Below the pieces are notes generated by a model that saw nothing but the letters and a program-made list of their open reading frames with translations, ran no database searches and was not told the origin of the DNA. From Cloacibacillus evryensis DSM 19522 (GTDB lineage Bacteria; Synergistota; Synergistia; Synergistales; Synergistaceae), in the NCBI RefSeq assembly GCF_000585335.1, contig NZ_KK073872.1, forward strand, positions 2,533,283 to 2,597,282: a DNA stretch of 64,000 nucleotides. The letters are read 5' to 3'. Shown here in pieces: positions 986 to 53,489 of the stretch. Made by a program: the position numbers and the translations under genes. How positions within the stretch are numbered: position 1 is the stretch's first letter; every line of letters begins with the position of its first letter.

Positions 986-2635
986 ATGATGAATTATAAA
1001 CAGTTGAAGAGGTCTTTGCTCGCCCTGCTGCTTTTGTTTGCCGCGGCGCTGCCTTCGCCGGCGGCGGAAAAGAGTTTTCATATCCTCATGATCAACGACC
1101 CTCACAGCTATATCCTGCCCTACTATGAGGCGGATAAGGCCGGGCTTCCGGCTGGGGCGGTCAAGGTCGGTCCGGTCGGAGGGCTGTCACGCGCGCTGCA
1201 ATTGACGGCCAACGAGAGGAAAAATATCGAGACGGCATCACAAAGCCCGATCTTCCTTTTCGAGGGCGGCGATATCATGCTCGGGAAGAAGGGCAGCCTC
1301 CAGAACGGGCACGCCGAATACGGCTCTTTAGCGGCGCTCGGCTTTGACGCGGGGGTGCTCGGCAATCACGACTTCGACGGCGGCGTTTCGGTACTTGCAA
1401 GGCTGGGGCCAACGCTCAAGTTCCCCGTGCTAGCCTCCAATATCACCTTCAAGGACGCCGTAATTGACAGCTTTTATCCCAAGACGAAAATAATCAAGAA
1501 GGGTGATGTGAGCGTGGGCGTATTTGGCCTCGTAACGCCCGGCCTGAAAGCGCTAATCTCCGATCCCGACGGCTTTGATATAGAAAGGGATATCGTCAAA
1601 AAGGCCGGTGAATGCGTGCGGGACCTCCGCGCGCAGGGCGTGGACGCCGTCGTCGCGCTGAACCACATCGGCCTCGACCTTGACAAAAAACTCGCGGCCG
1701 CGGTACCGGGAATAGACGTGATAGTCGGGGGACATTCGCACGACGCCGTCAAGGAGCCGCTGTTCATAAAAAACCCGCAGGGTTCGCGGACGCTCATCGG
1801 CCAGGCCGGCCTCAACGGGAGTTACGCCGGCAGATTTGACGTCACCGTGGACGACGGCGCTCTCGTCGCCGAAAAGTCGTCATGGAAGCTGATGACGGTA
1901 CAGCCCGGCACCACGGCGGAAAAAGAGAGTGAGGCTCTCGGGCTCGCCGCCAGGGAAATACTCGCGGCCACGCTTGACATCGCAGACCCCGCGGTCTTCT
2001 TCGCCAGGAGCATAGACGCCCGTAAGGAGGCGATGCGCACGCGTGAAAACGAGCTTGGAAATCTTGCCGCCGAGGCGCTCCGCTGGAACGGCGGGGCACG
2101 TATCGGCGTAATAAACGGCGGCGCGCTGCGCATAGGCCGCATCGTTCCGCCGGGGCCGTTTACGGCGGTCGATATGCTCGACCTCATGCCATTCGACGAT
2201 GTTCCGGTACGGCTGCTTGTGAGCGGCGCGGAGATCAGAATGCAGCTGGAAGCGGCGGCCTCCGCGCTTAAAGGGCGAAACGACGATTATGACCCGACGC
2301 GCCGTATGTCAACGGGAGAATTTTTACAGGTGGCGGGGCTGCGTTTCGATATCGACCTCGGCGAGCCCGCAGCCGTCGTGGATAACCGCCGCCTCGTCTC
2401 TCCCGGCAGCCGCGTAAAAAACATCGCGGTAGATTCCTCGCGGGGCTGGGTACCTCTCGAAGATGATAAAATTTACTCCGTCGCGGCGCTGGACTACACC
2501 GTGAAGCACTGGAACGCTCTTTCATCCGTGCCGGCCGGCAGGACGGCGATCGCCTGTTTCGACCGCTACCTGGCGAAGGTGCTGCGCCGTCGGGCCGATC
2601 CCAAGACAGACGGCAGGATAAATATTATCAACTAA
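986..2635 (+). CDS. Exported 5'-nucleotidase / UDP-sugar hydrolase family protein
   Basis: Hydrolyses phosphate esters of nucleotides outside the cytoplasm, judged by family. 549 residues. Signal peptide at residues 1-27 (hydrophobic run ending PSPAA). N-terminal metallophosphatase domain: INDPHSY (D and H ligands), GGDIMLG, GNHDFDGG, NHIGLD, GGHSHD. C-terminal 5'-nucleotidase domain with INGGALRIG and a late DYTVKHW segment. No LPXTG, lipobox or C-terminal membrane anchor was seen, so it is probably free in the periplasm. Two ATGs are adjacent (986, 989) behind TGGAGGAG. Its stop overlaps the stop of the convergent ABC ATPase gene by 3 bp. The exact substrate cannot be read from the sequence. 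Confidence 0.9.
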   Translation: MMNYKQLKRSLLALLLLFAAALPSPAAEKSFHILMINDPHSYILPYYEADKAGLPAGAVKVGPVGGLSRALQLTANERKNIETASQSPIFLFEGGDIMLGKKGSLQNGHAEYGSLAALGFDAGVLGNHDFDGGVSVLARLGPTLKFPVLASNITFKDAVIDSFYPKTKIIKKGDVSVGVFGLVTPGLKALISDPDGFDIERDIVKKAGECVRDLRAQGVDAVVALNHIGLDLDKKLAAAVPGIDVIVGGHSHDAVKEPLFIKNPQGSRTLIGQAGLNGSYAGRFDVTVDDGALVAEKSSWKLMTVQPGTTAEKESEALGLAAREILAATLDIADPAVFFARSIDARKEAMRTRENELGNLAAEALRWNGGARIGVINGGALRIGRIVPPGPFTAVDMLDLMPFDDVPVRLLVSGAEIRMQLEAAASALKGRNDDYDPTRRMSTGEFLQVAGLRFDIDLGEPAAVVDNRRLVSPGSRVKNIAVDSSRGWVPLEDDKIYSVAALDYTVKHWNALSSVPAGRTAIACFDRYLAKVLRRRADPKTDGRINIIN

Positions 2636-3693
2636 ATTTTTGAGTAGACCGTCTTCGCGCTGACCCCCGGGAACATGCCAAGTTTTCCGGAGAGGGCGCT
2701 TATCTTCTCGTTCGGCGCGTCGATTATCACGCTGATGATAGATATGTTGCGCTCCCGGTATGGCATTCCCATGCGCCCGATGATACAGTCGCTGTATTCG
2801 TGCAGCAGCCGGTTGATATTTTCCGCCGCCGCGGGGTCCTCCACGATTATCCCGATCTGTGCTATCCTCGTCTCCATTTCGATCAGCCTTTCCGTATGTG
2901 CATCCTCTCCCTCGCCGAGGGGGAGGATGCTCGTATAGTCGCGCCTGCCCACTTTAAAGCGGTGTATATGCACCGGTATCTCGAAAGCGCGCCGCAGGTT
3001 TTCTTCCGTCAGCACATTTGCCGTGCCTCCGAATATGGCGCTCTTGTCCGGCATCAGCAGCAGCGCGCGCTGTGATATATCCATCGCGTGTTCCGGGTAG
3101 TGCGTGTTTATCACCGCCGCGATGCCGCGCTCCTTGCAGAGCGTCGATATCGTCGAAAGGACCCTTTTCTGGTTTTTAAAATCCAGATTGGATTCCGGCT
3201 CGTCAAGCACCAAAAGCGATGGCTCGGCGGCGAGGGCGCGCGCGATCAGCACAAGCTGGTATTCGCCGCCGCTTATCTTGCTGCACAGCTTATCCCGCAG
3301 ATGCGCGATGCCGGCGAGCGCAAGCGCCTCGCCGGCGACGCGTTCGTCGTGCTCTTTGGGCATCGCGAGTTCGCTCATGTGCGCGCCGCGGCCAAGCAGC
3401 ACCATTTCGCGCACGGTGTAGACGAAGGAGGAGAGTTTCGCCTGCGGCACATAACCGACACGCCGCCAAAATTCCTTCGCGCGCAGACGCCGGATGTCCG
3501 TACCGTCAAGGTAGGAGGCGCCGCGGCTCCATCTGCGCAGTCCGAGCATACATTTCATCAGCGTCGTCTTGCCCGCGCCGTTGGCCCCAAGGATACAGAG
3601 AACGTCAGGCTCGCCTATGCTGAAGTTTATGTCGCAGAGGTTGTCGCAGCCCTCTTCATAGTTAAAATAACCGCCGCGCACCTCAAGGATCAT
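2632..3693 (-). CDS. Fec/Btu-type ABC transporter ATPase fused to TM1266-like ACT-fold domain
   Basis: ATP-binding subunit of a metal-chelate importer, last gene of the nitrogenase-like operon. Walker A GANGAGKTT (36-44), signature ISGGEYQ (140-146) and Walker B LLVLDEP (160-166) are intact. After the ATPase, residues 273-353 match the TM1266 family of putative regulators found near [FeFe]-hydrogenase maturation genes: IGIIVED, LLHEYSD, IGRMGMPYRE, ALSGKLG and GVSAKTVYSK. That domain has a ferredoxin/ACT-like fold and is normally a stand-alone protein of about 80 residues, so this is a fusion. The ATG at 3693 overlaps the permease stop (ATGA), which implies coupling. A longer in-frame upstream reading lies inside the permease and lacks family similarity. 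Confidence 0.88.
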   Translation of the reverse strand: MILEVRGGYFNYEEGCDNLCDINFSIGEPDVLCILGANGAGKTTLMKCMLGLRRWSRGASYLDGTDIRRLRAKEFWRRVGYVPQAKLSSFVYTVREMVLLGRGAHMSELAMPKEHDERVAGEALALAGIAHLRDKLCSKISGGEYQLVLIARALAAEPSLLVLDEPESNLDFKNQKRVLSTISTLCKERGIAAVINTHYPEHAMDISQRALLLMPDKSAIFGGTANVLTEENLRRAFEIPVHIHRFKVGRRDYTSILPLGEGEDAHTERLIEMETRIAQIGIIVEDPAAAENINRLLHEYSDCIIGRMGMPYRERNISIISVIIDAPNEKISALSGKLGMFPGVSAKTVYSKI

Positions 3694-4691
3694 GCCCTTA
3701 TCCCTCCCGTCTTTCTCAGCAGAAAGATGAAGAACGGCGCGCCGATGACGGCCGTCAGTATCGAGGCCGGTATCTCGGAGGCTGCGAGGCTGCGCGCCGC
3801 CGTGTCTATCGCAAGCATGAACAGCGCCCCGAGCGCCATGCTCGCGGGGACGACGGAACGGTTGTCGTTGCCGAAGATCATGCGCGCCGCGTGCGGGATC
3901 AGCAGCCCAACCCAACCGATGAGGCCGCACATCGAGACGACCGAAGCCGTGATCATCGCGGCTCCCGTGATCACAAGCAGCCTGATCCGTTTCACATTTA
4001 TTCCCAGAGAGACCGCCTCATCCTCGCTGAGCGTCATCGCGTTGAGCTTCCAGCGGAAGAGCCAGATCACCGCCATCCCGGCGGCGATCAGCGGCGCGCC
4101 CATCGCGAGGCTCGCGCGCGTCGTGCCGGAGAGGCTGCCCATCAGCCAGAAGGTTATCGACGGCAGCACGTCCTGCGGGTCGGCAATATACTTCACAAGC
4201 GAAACCAGCGCCGAAAAGAGCGCGCTGACGACCATTCCCGCCAGTATCATCATGATCACCGACGAAGAGCCGCGCACCCGGCTCACGAAGACGACGAGCG
4301 CGACGGCGGCAAGCCCGGCGGCGAGGGCGGAGAGCTGCACAAGGAATGACGGCAGCCCCATAAGTATGCCGAGCACCGCGCCGAAGGAGGCCCCGGTCGC
4401 GACGCCGAGCGTATCCGGCGTCGCCAGCGGATTTGAAAAGAGCGCCTGAAAGGCGCCCCCGGCGACGCCGAGCCCGGCGCCGGCGAGCATCGCGAGCAAT
4501 ATGCGCGGCAGGCGGATGTTGAGTATCACGTCGCGCACCATCTGCGGCGGCTCCGCGCCGCCAAGCCACGGAAGGAGCACGGAAAGCGTCTCGGCGAGCG
4601 AGAGCGGGAACCTCCCCGCCGTGACCGCAGCCAACGGCGCGGCGACCAGGAGCGCCGCCGTTGCCGTTACAAAGAACGTCCTCTTCTTCAT
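3690..4691 (-). CDS. FecCD-family ABC transporter permease
   Basis: Membrane subunit of a type II importer for an iron chelate, heme, cobalamin-like or related metal complex. 333 residues, normal for the family, with about ten hydrophobic helices. Family landmarks visible: RLPRILLAMLAGAGLGVAGG near residue 60, NPLATPDTLGVATGA, and the ATPase-coupling region GLIGWVGLLIPHAARMI near residue 255. It starts 3 bp after the binding-protein gene stop and ends overlapping the ATPase start, so one homodimeric permease, one ATPase and one binding protein make a full importer. The cargo is not identified by sequence. Confidence 0.92.
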   Translation of the reverse strand: MKKRTFFVTATAALLVAAPLAAVTAGRFPLSLAETLSVLLPWLGGAEPPQMVRDVILNIRLPRILLAMLAGAGLGVAGGAFQALFSNPLATPDTLGVATGASFGAVLGILMGLPSFLVQLSALAAGLAAVALVVFVSRVRGSSSVIMMILAGMVVSALFSALVSLVKYIADPQDVLPSITFWLMGSLSGTTRASLAMGAPLIAAGMAVIWLFRWKLNAMTLSEDEAVSLGINVKRIRLLVITGAAMITASVVSMCGLIGWVGLLIPHAARMIFGNDNRSVVPASMALGALFMLAIDTAARSLAASEIPASILTAVIGAPFFIFLLRKTGGIRA

Positions 4692-4694
4692 CGG

Positions 4695-5789
4695 CTATTT
4701 AATGAATCCGGCCGCCGAACCACGCCCCTGGTTGTACATCTGTTCTATCTGCCTGTCGCTGAGCGTGATGCCGTATAGCTTTTTGTAATAATTCCTTACC
4801 TCTTTGCGCATATCGACCTCTTTGAAGAGCTCAGGATAGACCTTCTGCGCCATCCACATCAGCGTCACCGGCGTGTCGACGCCGGGGGTGTAGCTCCGGT
4901 ACGTACCGAGCGGCATTTTGTAGACGGCGCGCTCCTTCACCGCCTTTACCGCGCTCCAGTCATGGCCGCCGATCTTATTGCCATAGAGGTCCTCCGGCAG
5001 CGCGGGCGTAAAGTTGGTGATAAATATGACATCGGGGTTCCATTTATAGACCTGCTCCATCGTGATGACGGCGTTGGAGTTGTCCGCCGGCACCTCTTCG
5101 GCGGCGTTCCTCGCTCCCACCGCGTCGCACCAGTACTGGCCGAAGAAGCTGCGCCCCGAGGTCACCATGCGCTTGTCGTCGTACTGGAAGAGGAAGAGCG
5201 CCTTTTTTCTGTCGGCTGGCTTGATCTTTCCAACTTTTTTCTGGATGTCGGCGTAGACTTTTTTACTGTAGCGCGAGACCTCTTTGCTTTTCGCGCTCTC
5301 CGGGAAGATCTGGCTCAGAGTCTTGATCCATTCGTCGTAAGTGCGCAGCACGTCGTAGTTCCACTTCGTCGGCGAAATGGCAACGGCGGGAAGGCCGGCG
5401 TTCTTGATCATCTTCCCCATCTCTTTGTTGCCGGCGAGATAAAATACGACGTCGGGGCGCAGCTTCATAAGCTCCTCTATGTTGAGGTCGAGTCCAGCGG
5501 TATATCCGGTCTGCGCCTTCAATATCTCGGGGAAGAGCTCGCCGAGCAGACCGGCCTTCGCCGCGCCCATCGACGCGGGAGGGATGCCCACCAGCTTCTC
5601 CGCCGAGCCTAGGAATACCGTTATCACCGAGGGAAAGGGCAGTATCCCGGCGACGGCGATCCGCTCTATCTTATCCGGCACCGTGACCTTATCGCCGGCC
5701 TCGTCGGTTATCACGCGCGAGGCCTCGGCCCCGGAGGCGCAGTTCATAAATATCAGCGCGCCTGTCAGCAGCGCGGCAAAAATTTTCAT
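4695..5789 (-). CDS. ABC transporter periplasmic metal-chelate binding protein (FepB/BtuF type)
   Basis: 364 residues. The signal peptide (about 1-25) has a cysteine in IFMNCASG, but the residues before it do not make a good lipobox, so signal peptidase I is more likely. The mature part opens with RVITDEAGDKVTVPDKIERI, typical of class III (helical-backbone) binding proteins, and contains LRPDVVF and WNPDVIFITN. It should deliver a metal chelate or tetrapyrrole to the FecCD permease encoded downstream. The ATG at 5789 overlaps the upstream component-1 gene stop (ATGA) and has an AGGGAG ribosome site at good spacing; an upstream in-frame start would add eight residues inside that gene. Confidence 0.9.
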   Translation of the reverse strand: MKIFAALLTGALIFMNCASGAEASRVITDEAGDKVTVPDKIERIAVAGILPFPSVITVFLGSAEKLVGIPPASMGAAKAGLLGELFPEILKAQTGYTAGLDLNIEELMKLRPDVVFYLAGNKEMGKMIKNAGLPAVAISPTKWNYDVLRTYDEWIKTLSQIFPESAKSKEVSRYSKKVYADIQKKVGKIKPADRKKALFLFQYDDKRMVTSGRSFFGQYWCDAVGARNAAEEVPADNSNAVITMEQVYKWNPDVIFITNFTPALPEDLYGNKIGGHDWSAVKAVKERAVYKMPLGTYRSYTPGVDTPVTLMWMAQKVYPELFKEVDMRKEVRNYYKKLYGITLSDRQIEQMYNQGRGSAAGFIK

Positions 5790-6949
5790 AGCACAAGCTC
5801 CCTTTCTATCCATTTATTAAACTCCCCGCCCATAAAGAGCGGGATATCATCCCTGAATATGCGCCCGGAATAGCCCTCGTGCGGCAGCGCGACAAAACGG
5901 CAGTAATGCTTGGGCAGCGCCGGCCTGTAGAGCGGATCGGCGATCACGAGGCGCGCCTCGCGCAGCGCGCGGAATACCTCGTCCTCGTCGGGGAAGTCAA
6001 GCGGCGCGAGCACGCGCACATTGCGCATCGCGTAGTCGCGCTCCAAAGCGCGCGCGATAGCGGCGCTCTGCACCGGCTCGCCGATCACAAAGACCTTGCC
6101 GCCCGGCTCCGTTATCGGCGCGGTCAGCGAGAGATCGCCGCCGTCTCGCGCCGCCTCGTCTATGAGCGCAAACAGCTCGCGCGTCACCGAATCGCCGACG
6201 GGAAGCCCCGTCACCGCCGGGGTGCCGTATATCTCGCGCAGCGCGGCGGCAAGCGGCGCGCCGCATGAGGAGACGACGACGTTTACATGGGCGAGGCCGG
6301 CCCGCATCAGCTCCTCCCACGGGCTGTTCATCGCCCAGCAACTGTTGACGCGAAAGCCGGCGTCCTCAAATACGCGCCTCATAGCCTCCACATTGCCGCG
6401 CCCTCCCTCTCCGATGGAAAAATCCAGCGGCGTCACGCCGAGCAGGTTGACAGAGGGACGCTCGCCCGCCTTGAGCGGCGCCGCGGCAAGCGACGGGGCG
6501 CAGAAACGGCGCGCGACGGCGGCGAGGGCCATTCCCGCGCCGCGGCTGTAGGAGTTCATGCCGTTCGTCGCAAAGCCGAAGGTCGGGATGCCGGTACGCT
6601 CTTCAATCAAGCGGGCTATTCCCTTAAAATCCGTTCCCATCATCATCGGGATCGGCGTTCCGGCAAGCGCGATAAAACGCGGCCTAAGCTCGCCGGCGGC
6701 GCGGCAGACGTCGCCGATGACCTTTTCGTCGTCGCCCATCAGCGCGTCCACCTCGGCGAGCGCGGAGATAAAAACCATCGAGGGCGTGTCATACCAGCGC
6801 GGCTCGTCGTGCGTATTGTAGGTCGAATTACAGCCGGAGGCGTCGTGCATCACCGTCATGCCGCCCATCTCATAGAGCGCCGAGCAGACGCCGGAGACGT
6901 CGGCGGCGTATGTGGAAAGGATCGCGCAGGTCTGTCTCAACAGCAGCAC
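5786..6949 (-). CDS. Nitrogenase component-1-like subunit (NifD/NifK superfamily), second in operon
   Basis: 387 residues, shorter than NifD or NifK. Early cysteines C8, C22, C40 and C82 could hold an FeS cluster at the subunit interface; C40 lies in DASGCNSTYNTHDEPRWYD, a block I associate with uncharacterised anaerobe 'nitrogenase component 1' proteins. Later landmarks: LAGTPIPMMMGTDF and FGFATNGMNSYSRG. The proposed start is a GTG at 6949 that overlaps the end of the preceding subunit gene by 13 bp. FeMo-cofactor assembly genes are absent, so it more likely works like DPOR, COR or CfbCD on a tetrapyrrole or other metallocofactor. The substrate is unknown. Confidence 0.82.
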   Translation of the reverse strand: MLLLRQTCAILSTYAADVSGVCSALYEMGGMTVMHDASGCNSTYNTHDEPRWYDTPSMVFISALAEVDALMGDDEKVIGDVCRAAGELRPRFIALAGTPIPMMMGTDFKGIARLIEERTGIPTFGFATNGMNSYSRGAGMALAAVARRFCAPSLAAAPLKAGERPSVNLLGVTPLDFSIGEGGRGNVEAMRRVFEDAGFRVNSCWAMNSPWEELMRAGLAHVNVVVSSCGAPLAAALREIYGTPAVTGLPVGDSVTRELFALIDEAARDGGDLSLTAPITEPGGKVFVIGEPVQSAAIARALERDYAMRNVRVLAPLDFPDEDEVFRALREARLVIADPLYRPALPKHYCRFVALPHEGYSGRIFRDDIPLFMGGEFNKWIERELVL

Positions 6950-8268
6950 CCCCAGCCCTTGACCTGAATTATCTTCTTGGTATCTTTTTCGTTGATCACA
7001 GCGTCGCAGACGGCCTCCGCAAGATGGACGATCCCGTCAAATCCCCAGAAACCTCCGCCCTCGAGCATATTGACGAAATGGGGCGTATTACAAAAATAGG
7101 CCGCCTTCTGGCCGATGGCGACGATCTTCTCCGATCCGCCGCCGGACGACGCCCTCGGCAGCACCCCCATCTTCGGGTGCACCGTCGCGCAGAGCTCAAG
7201 CTCGGGATACTTCGCTTGCAGGCGCTCGAAGGCGGGGCGCTCCTCTGGAATAAAAACGTCGGCGTAGACGGTGCGCACATTGACTCCGTGATCGAGCAGC
7301 AGCTCCGCAAGCCCCAGCGGACGCGGCGTCGCCGTGTAGTCTATCGCAACGGGAGTCTCTCCGAGAAGCCTCGCGGCGGTCGATATCGCCCGCTCAGCCT
7401 CCGCTTCAAGCAGCCCCGCGTCGATCATCGGGATATCAAGGCGATCGGCGAGCGCCTCAAGGTTCGCCCTGATCTCCGCGTAATCATAGCTCAGCGGCAG
7501 ATAGAGATAATCGATATCAGCCCGTTCTTTCAGATCGCGCGCCGCGGGAAGCGCGGGCGGCATATAGGCGATGTCGAGCCGGCTGTGCGCCATCTTCAGA
7601 TACTCGCGGAAGGAGCGGCAGCGCGTGATATCGCGTATCTCAAAGCCGGCGCCGCGCAGCATACGCACAAAATCCGAAGAATCCTCCGTCGGATAATTAT
7701 TGCCGATGATGTTGACACACTTTTCATCGCGTATATCCTGCCGTGAAAGAAAGCTGTAAAGCCTCATACGCATCATCGGGTCGGGCGGCGTCTTCGTCTT
7801 GCGCATGATCGGGTACATATAGCAGTCGGTGAAATAGATCCCTGGGAAGCGCCCGCACAGTTTGGCGTAGACATAATCTAGGTCGCAGCCCATAAAATTA
7901 TGTATGCAGCTCGTGAAGACGAGCACCGCCTTCGGCTCCTTCGGAAGTTTGCGCAGCACGTCTGCCACCCCGTCGATGATAAGGGATTCCATATCGCCGT
8001 CGAGAACGTTGTTCTCGCAGACGGCGATCGTTGAAAAACGCTCCTGCGCTCCCATCTCCGCCGCCGTCAGCACGACGCCGCGCAGGCATCCCTGCGCGCA
8101 GACGAATATCTGATGGCTCTCGGGCAGCAGCATCCCCGTATGGACGATGTTCCAAAGGCCGCGCGCCGGCGAGCCGTACTCGACGCCGTACTCATAGGGC
8201 GTGAGCGAATCGGCGTCTTTTATCTTTACGGAGGCCCCGCTCCAGTCGGGATCATGAAGGTCTATCAT
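6937..8268 (-). CDS. Nitrogenase component-1-like subunit (NifD/NifK superfamily), first in operon
   Basis: 443 residues. Cysteines sit in FVCAQGCLRGV (C57, C61), TSCIHNFMGCDLD and FTDCYMYPIMRK, suitable for FeS ligation with a partner subunit. The N-terminus YGVEYGSPARGLWNIVHTGM and the block ENNVLDGDMESLIIDGV resemble other anaerobe proteins labelled nitrogenase component 1. The ATG at 8268 comes 2 nt after the NifH-like stop; a GTG six bases earlier is possible. The protein ends in three cysteines (GWGCCC) because its last codons overlap the next gene's start. It probably forms the heteromeric catalytic component with the next gene product, fed electrons by the NifH-like protein. Confidence 0.82.
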   Translation of the reverse strand: MIDLHDPDWSGASVKIKDADSLTPYEYGVEYGSPARGLWNIVHTGMLLPESHQIFVCAQGCLRGVVLTAAEMGAQERFSTIAVCENNVLDGDMESLIIDGVADVLRKLPKEPKAVLVFTSCIHNFMGCDLDYVYAKLCGRFPGIYFTDCYMYPIMRKTKTPPDPMMRMRLYSFLSRQDIRDEKCVNIIGNNYPTEDSSDFVRMLRGAGFEIRDITRCRSFREYLKMAHSRLDIAYMPPALPAARDLKERADIDYLYLPLSYDYAEIRANLEALADRLDIPMIDAGLLEAEAERAISTAARLLGETPVAIDYTATPRPLGLAELLLDHGVNVRTVYADVFIPEERPAFERLQAKYPELELCATVHPKMGVLPRASSGGGSEKIVAIGQKAAYFCNTPHFVNMLEGGGFWGFDGIVHLAEAVCDAVINEKDTKKIIQVKGWGCCC

Positions 8269-8270
8269 CT

Positions 8271-9026
8271 TCACGCACCGCAGGCGGCGAGCACGCGCCG
8301 CGCAAGTTCGCGGTACTCCTCCGCCATCGGGCTGTCGGGAAAGGCTTCCAGCACCGTCTGGCGGCGCTCCTCCGCCTGCTGGACGACCGGACTGAAATTC
8401 AGCGCGCCGATCACCTTCGACGCCACATCGGAGGCCAGCTCCGCCGCCTTCTCCTCCTCGCGCGGCACATTGCGGCGGTTCAAAATCACGCCGCCGAGCG
8501 TCGCGTAGCCGCGCGAACGAAAATTGGCGACCGCTTCGGCGATGTTGGCCGCCGCGTGGATCGCCATATTCTCGCCGGAGGTGACGACGAAAACCTTTTC
8601 GGCGTAGCCTTCGCGTATCGGCATCGCAAAACCGCCGCATACCACGTCGCCAAGCACGTCGTAGATCACCGCGTCGGGGCGGTATATCTCAAAAGCCCGC
8701 TTCTCCTTCAGCTTCTCCATCGCGGCGATGATGCCGCGCCCGGCACAGCCGAGCCCGGGCGCGGGACCGCCCGCCTCCGCACAGAGCACGCCCGCGAACC
8801 CCGGCGTCACCATCTCTTCAAGCGTAAGCGCCTCGCCCCTGCTCCTGATCAGTTCGAGCACGGTCGGCACATCCCTGCCGCCGCGCAGGTTCACCGTCGA
8901 ATCGGCCTTCGGGTCGCAGCCGATCTGCATCACACGCATCCCCGACTGCGCGAAAGCCGCCGCGATATTTGAAGCCGTCGTCGACTTGCCGATACCGCCC
9001 TTGCCGTAAATTGCGATCTTTATCAT
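8271..9026 (-). CDS. NifH/BchL/CfbC-like ATP-dependent iron-sulfur reductase
   Basis: 251 residues. P-loop GKGGIGKST (8-16), switch region GCDPKADST (36-44), and both [4Fe-4S] ligands of the NifH family: C94 in GLGCAGRG and C130 in GDVVCGGF. It should be a homodimer with one bridging cluster that hydrolyses ATP to reduce the component-1-like complex. The ATG at 9026 is chosen because AGGGG lies 8 nt upstream; a GTG at 9035 is too close to that site. It is the first gene of the six-gene operon ending at 2632 and sits 15 nt behind a terminator-like hairpin. C94, C130 and the P-loop indicate an active reductase. Confidence 0.92.
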
Positions 9027-9041
9027 CTTCCACACCCCTGC

Positions 9042-53087: not shown

Positions 53088-53390
53088 TACAAAAATTCCT
53101 CCTGATAAAGATATTTATGAATAACTGCAAAGAACCCAGTTGATTCCGCCGTTGTTGGCGCTGCTCGTGTATATTTATTTGTAATAGCGCCAGTTGCTCG
53201 CCAAATAAAATAATTAAATATAACATACTTGAATATTTAAAAATTGTCAATAATTTTTTAAAACAAGCCAATATTATAAGGAGAAATGCTTCTAGTACAG
53301 TTATTAATAAATATCGTAAAAATAAACTTTACAACGCCTGCGAAACTGTTTAGAATACGTGACGAAAGCGGGAACGATTCCCGCGTGATT
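53088..53390. other. Divergent AT-rich intergenic region
   Basis: Between AbgT (minus) and the TPP riboswitch (plus). AT-rich and likely holds both promoters; no other gene or clear operator was seen. Confidence 0.4.
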
Positions 53391-53476
53391 TATGGGGAGC
53401 CTGGATATTTCGGCTGAGAGGAGGCGCGGCCTCGACCCGATGAACCTGATGTGGGTAATGCCACCGTAGGGAGAAT
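53391..53476 (+). ncRNA. TPP riboswitch aptamer (THI element)
   Basis: Conserved parts in order: GGGGAGCC, GGCTGAGAGGA, GACCCGATGAACCTGAT, GGGTAATGCC and GTAGGGAGA. This is the thiamin pyrophosphate class. It is followed by a terminator before the cytX start, so TPP should shut off the gene. Confidence 0.95.
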
Positions 53477-53489
53477 AGCTCGAATTCAG

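Follow-up and report, generated by a model that had tools for sequence, protein, structure and literature searches.

A TM1266-like domain fused to an importer ATPase in a nitrogenase-like operon of Cloacibacillus evryensis and its putative link to [FeFe]-hydrogenase maturation

Introduction

Proteins of the TM1266 family are normally small, free proteins linked to the maturation of [FeFe]-hydrogenases; they are putative regulators, a label that stems from databases. In the window, i.e., the whole 64,000-nucleotide stretch of Cloacibacillus evryensis DSM 19522 that was analyzed (contig NZ_KK073872.1, positions 2,533,283 to 2,597,282), a domain of this family forms the C-terminus of an ABC ATPase encoded in an operon with nitrogenase-like proteins. 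This raises the question of why a hydrogenase maturation protein is joined to an importer and what a nitrogenase-like enzyme has to do with either. The original prediction, made from the letters alone, had proposed that the domain gates transport by sensing a metal or cofactor. The comparison with related loci suggests that the importer, the NifH/D/K-like proteins and TM1266 probably constitute one module for H-cluster assembly, in which the tail feeds back on the ATPase.

The ATPase and its C-terminal domain

The predicted coordinates of the ATPase gene are right; it is read from the minus strand of the window, from 3693 to 2632, and in the reading-frame check the plus strand was interrupted by stop codons there. 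Three features of the gene are of importance:

2632..3693, minus strand: ABC ATPase of 353 aa bearing the TM1266-like domain at its C-terminus; a core of approximately residues 1-260 is followed by a linker (261-275)
2635..2877, minus strand: TM1266-like domain of the NikR-C/ACT fold, residues 273-353 (PF21699 match and predicted structure)
2875..2892, minus strand: in-frame ATG (Met273, the former start codon) with an upstream Shine-Dalgarno-like stretch of the GAAAGG type, a possible internal start

A 5'-nucleotidase/metallophosphoesterase gene on the plus strand (986-2635) converges with the ATPase gene, the stop codons overlapping at 2632-2635.

The motifs of the ATPase core are intact (Walker A GANGAGKT, signature ISGGE, H-loop NTHYP). 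In the tail, residues 276-348 match the whole profile (1-74) of the Pfam family PF21699 (TM1266-like) with 110 bits and an E-value of 5e-32 (cut-off 27 bits), and the NCBIfam model TIGR03959 (hyd_TM1266) scores 111 bits, above its equivalog cut-off of 60.8 bits. The TM1266 structure (PDB 2nzc) is found by sequence with an E-value of 2.7e-15, and the invariant residues of the family are also present in the tail. In the Pfam search TM1266-like was the sole family above cut-off in the tail, which was recognized neither as a NIL/ACT tail as in MetN nor as a TOBE tail as in ModC. The assignment of residues 273-353 to the TM1266 family is thereby confirmed. In nearly all other loci inspected TM1266 is a free protein, whereas here it is the C-terminal domain of an ABC ATPase.

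Modeled alone with AlphaFold, the tail reached a pLDDT of 94.9 and adopts a beta-alpha-beta-beta-alpha-beta arrangement (E3-12 H15-27 E32-40 E45-55 H56-67 E72-78). Its closest structural match is TM1266 (2nzc; TM-score 0.93, rmsd 1.0 A), followed by NikR-C (TM-score about 0.86) and then by ACT domains. The ACT-like fold that had been proposed is therefore supported by the model, the tail being nearer to NikR-C than to ACT proper; neither a missing HMM match nor a fold unlike ACT/ferredoxin was found. NikR is a transcription factor. The tail shares the fold of its C-terminal nickel-binding domain at 10-22% identity, a likeness of fold only. The model of the whole protein has a pLDDT of 83; its core is closest to HI1470/MolC (2nq2; TM 0.92 by target length), and the linker 261-275 is disordered with a pLDDT below 50.

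C-terminal domains that control transport are known from MetNI and ModC, which are trans-inhibited type I importers. The original prediction had drawn this analogy, and it stands for the layout, since MetN (C2/ACT tail) and ModC (TOBE tail) carry a sensor-type domain C-terminal to the ATPase as here, and the MetN tail is also ACT-like. It does not extend to the type of importer or to the family of the tail: MetN and ModC belong to type I and carry tails of other families, whereas the importer of the window is of the type II FecCD/MolBC-like kind. Moreover, the domains are packed differently in the model of the window ATPase, where superposition along the entire length gives an rmsd of more than 11 A.

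The importer and the nitrogenase-like proteins

The operon is transcribed in the order NifH-like, NifD-like, NifK-like, substrate-binding protein, FecCD permease and ATPase, and the gene ends overlap or nearly touch. Upstream of the ATPase gene it comprises:

8271..9035, minus strand: NifH-like reductase (PF00142, Fer4_NifH, E 2e-88)
6937..8274, minus strand: nitrogenase-like subunit in the NifD position, ending in KGWGCCC (PF00148, Oxidored_nitro, E 2e-16)
5786..6949, minus strand: nitrogenase-like subunit in the NifK position with one conserved cluster cysteine, HDASGC (PF00148, E 3e-29)
4695..5813, minus strand: substrate-binding protein, Peripla_BP_2 (PF01497, E 3e-19)
3690..4691, minus strand: FecCD-family permease (PF01032, E 2e-85)

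The NifD-like gene starts at GTG 8274 or ATG 8268. With one Fer4_NifH and two Oxidored_nitro proteins next to Peripla_BP_2 and FecCD, the Pfam matches bear out the earlier description of the operon as nitrogenase-like.

A FecCD permease, a Peripla_BP_2 binding protein and an ATPase with Walker A/B, signature and H-loop are the components of a type II (FecCD/BtuCD) importer, and by its sequence the importer is of type II, with a putative substrate of the metal-chelate class. The best solved relatives of the binding protein are 4ovk and, second, MolA HI1472 (3psa); as a group, the nearest solved binding proteins are of mixed specificity. Among solved structures, MolBC-A (HI1470-HI1472), a type II molybdate/tungstate importer, comes closest with its ATPase, judged both by sequence and by fold; the identity is only 36%, and the HI1470 chain of about 250 aa has no tail. 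No riboswitch that could have hinted at the substrate was found upstream of the operon. Across seven related loci Rfam yielded a T-box leader and a 5S rRNA, two matches that are uninformative in this respect. The sole Rfam match in the window is a TPP riboswitch (RF00059, 65 bits) at 53383-53489 on the plus strand. The resemblance to MolBC-A (2nq2, 3psa) would suit an ordinary molybdate/tungstate or iron-chelate importer standing beside an unrelated nitrogenase-like enzyme, with the tail being a chance fusion with a mobile ACT-like domain. We regard this as improbable, as the distribution discussed below mostly argues against it.

For the nitrogenase-like pair, alignments showed that the FeMoco ligands Cys275/His442 and the full set of P-cluster cysteines are absent, and neither protein reaches the equivalog cut-off of NifD or NifK; by profile, the subunit in the NifK position comes closest to NifE and BchB. 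Conserved cysteines are C59, C63 and C123 (FVCAxGC, FTSCIH) together with a C-terminal cysteine tail in the NifD-like protein and C40 (HDASGC) in the NifK-like protein. In relatives whose operons are linked to hydrogenase maturation (Hyd) genes, the NifD-like protein ends in KGxGC followed by further cysteines (18/18 sequences read), whereas the C-termini without this linkage read YG[IL]VV (4/4 checked, and likewise others in the alignment). These residues lead us to infer that the reductase has a simple Fe-S cluster and that its cysteine-rich tail could bind a metal complex or pass it on. NifHEN-like genes adjoining hydrogenase maturation genes were described in Coprococcus catus, and in one sentence a role in assembling an active-site metallocluster was suggested; separately, nitrogenase-like genes beside ABC transporters were noted (Dos Santos et al., 2012, PMC3464626). 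The clade described there is nitrogenase-like, lacks the FeMoco ligands and has few conserved cysteines, which by description is close to the cysteine set of the window pair; the C. catus system is likened here by its description.

Distribution and history of the fusion

The predicted fusion is confirmed. The fused ATPase occurs in eight genomes of five genera, all of them Synergistaceae, and an assembly join or chance as its source is ruled out by this recurrence. Compared with the window protein, the tail of the fused homologues is 86-100% identical and the ATPase core 68-89%. TM1266 is found above cut-off in 85/188 Synergistota genomes, nearly always as a free protein in open frames of about 80-170 aa, and several carriers of the fusion also have a separate TM1266 gene.

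When 84,980 species were scanned with the profile of the tail, 80 loci were obtained. HydE, HydF or HydG lies within 12 kb in 69/77 other TM1266 loci, mostly of free TM1266 genes. Six clostridial loci (L092, L093, L094, L100, L120, L147) contain an operon of the window type followed by a free TM1266 gene; the sequence of L120 begins inside the gene of the substrate-binding protein. In L094 TM1266 directly follows the ATPase gene, and in the other five HydF lies between the operon and TM1266. Furthermore, HydE is encoded upstream of NifH in L093, L100 and L147, and both HydE and HydF of L100 exceed their equivalog cut-offs. The link to [FeFe]-hydrogenase maturation is thus stronger than had been supposed. 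It is seen in these clostridial relatives, the window locus itself being free of Hyd maturation genes; elsewhere the window genome has HydA, HydE, HydF and HydG.

In five further operons (L176-L180) the order is TM1266, permease, ATPase::TM1266, (HydE), NifH, NifD, NifK and substrate-binding protein. Their ATPases form a second fusion with a more divergent TM1266 tail, for which PF21699 E-values lay between 9e-18 and 2e-19 in the three ATPases that were scanned. In the tree of ATPase cores the fused ATPases of Synergistaceae group with unfused clostridial ATPases that have a separate TM1266 neighbor (fork 100/100), which shows that the fusion joins genes adjoining elsewhere. A single clade of all fused ATPases is rejected on this tree (AU p 2.7e-7); the tree of the short tail alone is undecided on it (AU p 0.26). 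At least two gains, or one ancestral gain and several losses, are needed to account for these sequences. From the recurrent linkage and the fusions on two separate branches it follows, as far as sequences tell, that TM1266 is a genuine partner of the importer ATPase.

These data also bear on the ordinary importer. More distant operons of Synergistales/Synergistota encode ATPases of about 260 aa without the tail and have no Hyd neighbors within the stretches read; importer and NifHDK therefore work without the tail in other settings. Moreover, two genomes (G014 and G029, loci L035 and L037) have the importer with neither adjacent NifHDK nor an ATPase tail. The importer of L035 lies beside a convergent 5'-nucleotidase gene of the window type, and parts may thus have been lost in place. 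Against a chance fusion stand the two separate branches, the free TM1266 gene in the operon of close relatives, the presence of HydE/HydF within related operons and the slower evolution of the tail compared to the ATPase core.

Two further TM1266-like matches were observed in the window genome. Downstream of a free TM1266 gene (L053 9100-11542, C1 at about 3.067 Mb) come first an NMT1-family periplasmic binding protein (PF09084 E 1e-26) and next HydF, so that this hydrogenase maturation locus includes a second component of an importer. The third match (L054, C1:1811673-1811897) has 21 bits, below cut-off, and the region around it contains genes resembling transposases and reverse transcriptases.

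The tail might alternatively act as a docking or dosage device: either the importer would recruit HydF, HydE or free TM1266 through it, or Met273 might be used as an internal start yielding free TM1266. Met273 and an AGG codon upstream of it are kept in 8/8 fused genes within an otherwise variable linker, with AGG accounting for 20% of their Arg codons, which leaves room for free TM1266 made from the ATPase gene. The flexibility of the linker in the model would also suit docking, and since several carriers have a separate TM1266 gene, the fused form could assemble with the free one. However, the tail of the clostridial fusion begins with a residue other than Met, and TM1266 is also encoded separately in that operon; an internal start therefore cannot explain the clostridial case. 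In addition, an amino-acid constraint on the residues TERL could account for part of the conservation at the DNA level, and the eight genes are related. Overall, we consider docking or dosage unlikely.

The module and HydG

HydG is a tyrosine lyase, the source of the CO and CN- ligands and the usual ligand-making enzyme. Its distribution was compared with that of the module in a clostridial sample of 245 genomes, evenly drawn from the order of G191, which includes some MAGs and in which species were treated as independent. HydF is present in 117 and HydG in 103 of these genomes, and a NifK-like match (E <1e-60) in nine. Eight of the nine carry the Hyd-linked module, and all eight have HydF and lack HydG; the module occurs in 0/103 HydG-positive genomes (Fisher 4.4e-9 for HydG absence among the 117 HydF-positive genomes, for a clade that was delimited post hoc). 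The remaining genome, G380, is the most distant of the nine; its operon has no Hyd neighbors and is not Hyd-linked. With every NifK-like match counted, HydG is absent in 8/9 (Fisher p 3.8e-8 among HydF-positive genomes), and HydF accompanies the module in 9/9 (p 0.001). At the level of loci, HydG is nearby at 0/6 module loci compared with 57/71 other TM1266 loci (p 1.6e-4). The HydG-lacking module genomes tested all have HydA except G344, and HydE is kept where it was read. Among four genomes reached via loci, G189, G190 and G193 lack HydG and G188 has it.

This distribution may mean that the module replaces HydG upstream of HydE and HydF by making a diatomic-ligand iron synthon, with free or fused TM1266 tuning the module; it is an explanation that we take seriously but hold, on balance, to be somewhat doubtful. 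Stated more specifically and a shade more tentatively still, the iron-CO-CN precursor of the H-cluster might come from a nitrogenase-like reductase that has an importer of its own and is under the control of TM1266; this would constitute a second biosynthetic route. The cysteine tail that ends every Hyd-linked NifD-like protein read is consistent with this. In the clade of the fused ATPase, G009 and G021 (99-100% complete) likewise lack HydG and have HydA, HydE, HydF and the module. However, HydG is present in the window genome and in G001, G020, G027 and G034, i.e., in 5/7 genomes of this clade with HydF, as it is in G188; a replacement is therefore not strict in the window genome. A degenerate HydG was considered there and ruled out, since the score of the protein exceeds the equivalog cut-off and CX2CX22C is retained at the C-terminus (by eye). 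In G004, the fused ATPase and HydA were found and neither HydF nor HydG was detected.

In Synergistota the association of HydG absence with the module is weaker (12/11 vs 12/64, p 0.0014), and HydF was undetected in 4/27 module genomes, some of them incomplete. Moreover, neither HydG nor the module was detected in 12 Synergistota and six clostridial HydF-positive genomes, many of them MAGs of untold completeness, the clostridial ones being:

G229, G247, G248, G288, G318, G439: clostridial genomes with HydF, without HydG and without detected module

One of them, G288, has a TM1266-HydE-HydF locus (L199 10103-13523) and HydA. All of these genomes count against the replacement, as do the non-independence of the species and the post hoc definition of the Hyd-linked clade. 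We also know of no chemistry for such a conversion. In G007, TM1266 lies directly upstream of a distant NifH-NifD-NifK set (L188 9542-13581; 57/23/29% identity); this genome has HydF and HydA and no HydG.

Proposed mechanism and implications

In the module that we favor, TM1266 as the C-terminal domain of a type II importer ATPase would couple transport to hydrogenase maturation. The importer would supply a metal or a metal-bearing precursor for H-cluster assembly, the nitrogenase-like reductase would act on the imported metal species by reducing it, and the product would be delivered to HydE/HydF. The tail may assemble into a dimer or tetramer of the NikR/ACT-like kind, read the state of the pathway and lower ATP hydrolysis once supply is sufficient. 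The disordered linker leaves a rigid coupling of tail and core unsupported, which speaks against this explanation, as do the more distant Synergistales operons that lack the tail and G004 with its fused ATPase and no detected HydF or HydG. TM1266 is found free beside HydG where the module is absent, which suggests that it senses something common to both routes, e.g., an iron complex or a maturation intermediate.

The association of NifHEN-like with hydrogenase maturation genes was noted in 2012, and the fusion and the exclusion of HydG appear to be new. In the parts of PMC3464626 that were searched, no TM1266 fusion, coupling of a tail to an importer or HydG exclusion is mentioned. Similarly, no description of the TM1266 tail, its repeated fusion, an operon of HydE, HydF and importer, the cysteine tail, HydG exclusion or a HydG-free natural system with the module was found in the literature searched, which subscription papers and some preprints lay beyond.

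As a summary, the fusion to one importer ATPase on two branches assigns a partner to TM1266, so far a putative regulator, together with a role that can be tested. The relatives of the operon tie an uncharacterized group of nitrogenase-like proteins to HydE and HydF, in the clostridial sample, where Hyd-linked, only in genomes without HydG. If a replacement of HydG were shown, the finding would be categorically new. Either these nitrogenase-like proteins help to build the H-cluster, or a HydG-free way of making the H-cluster is still missing.
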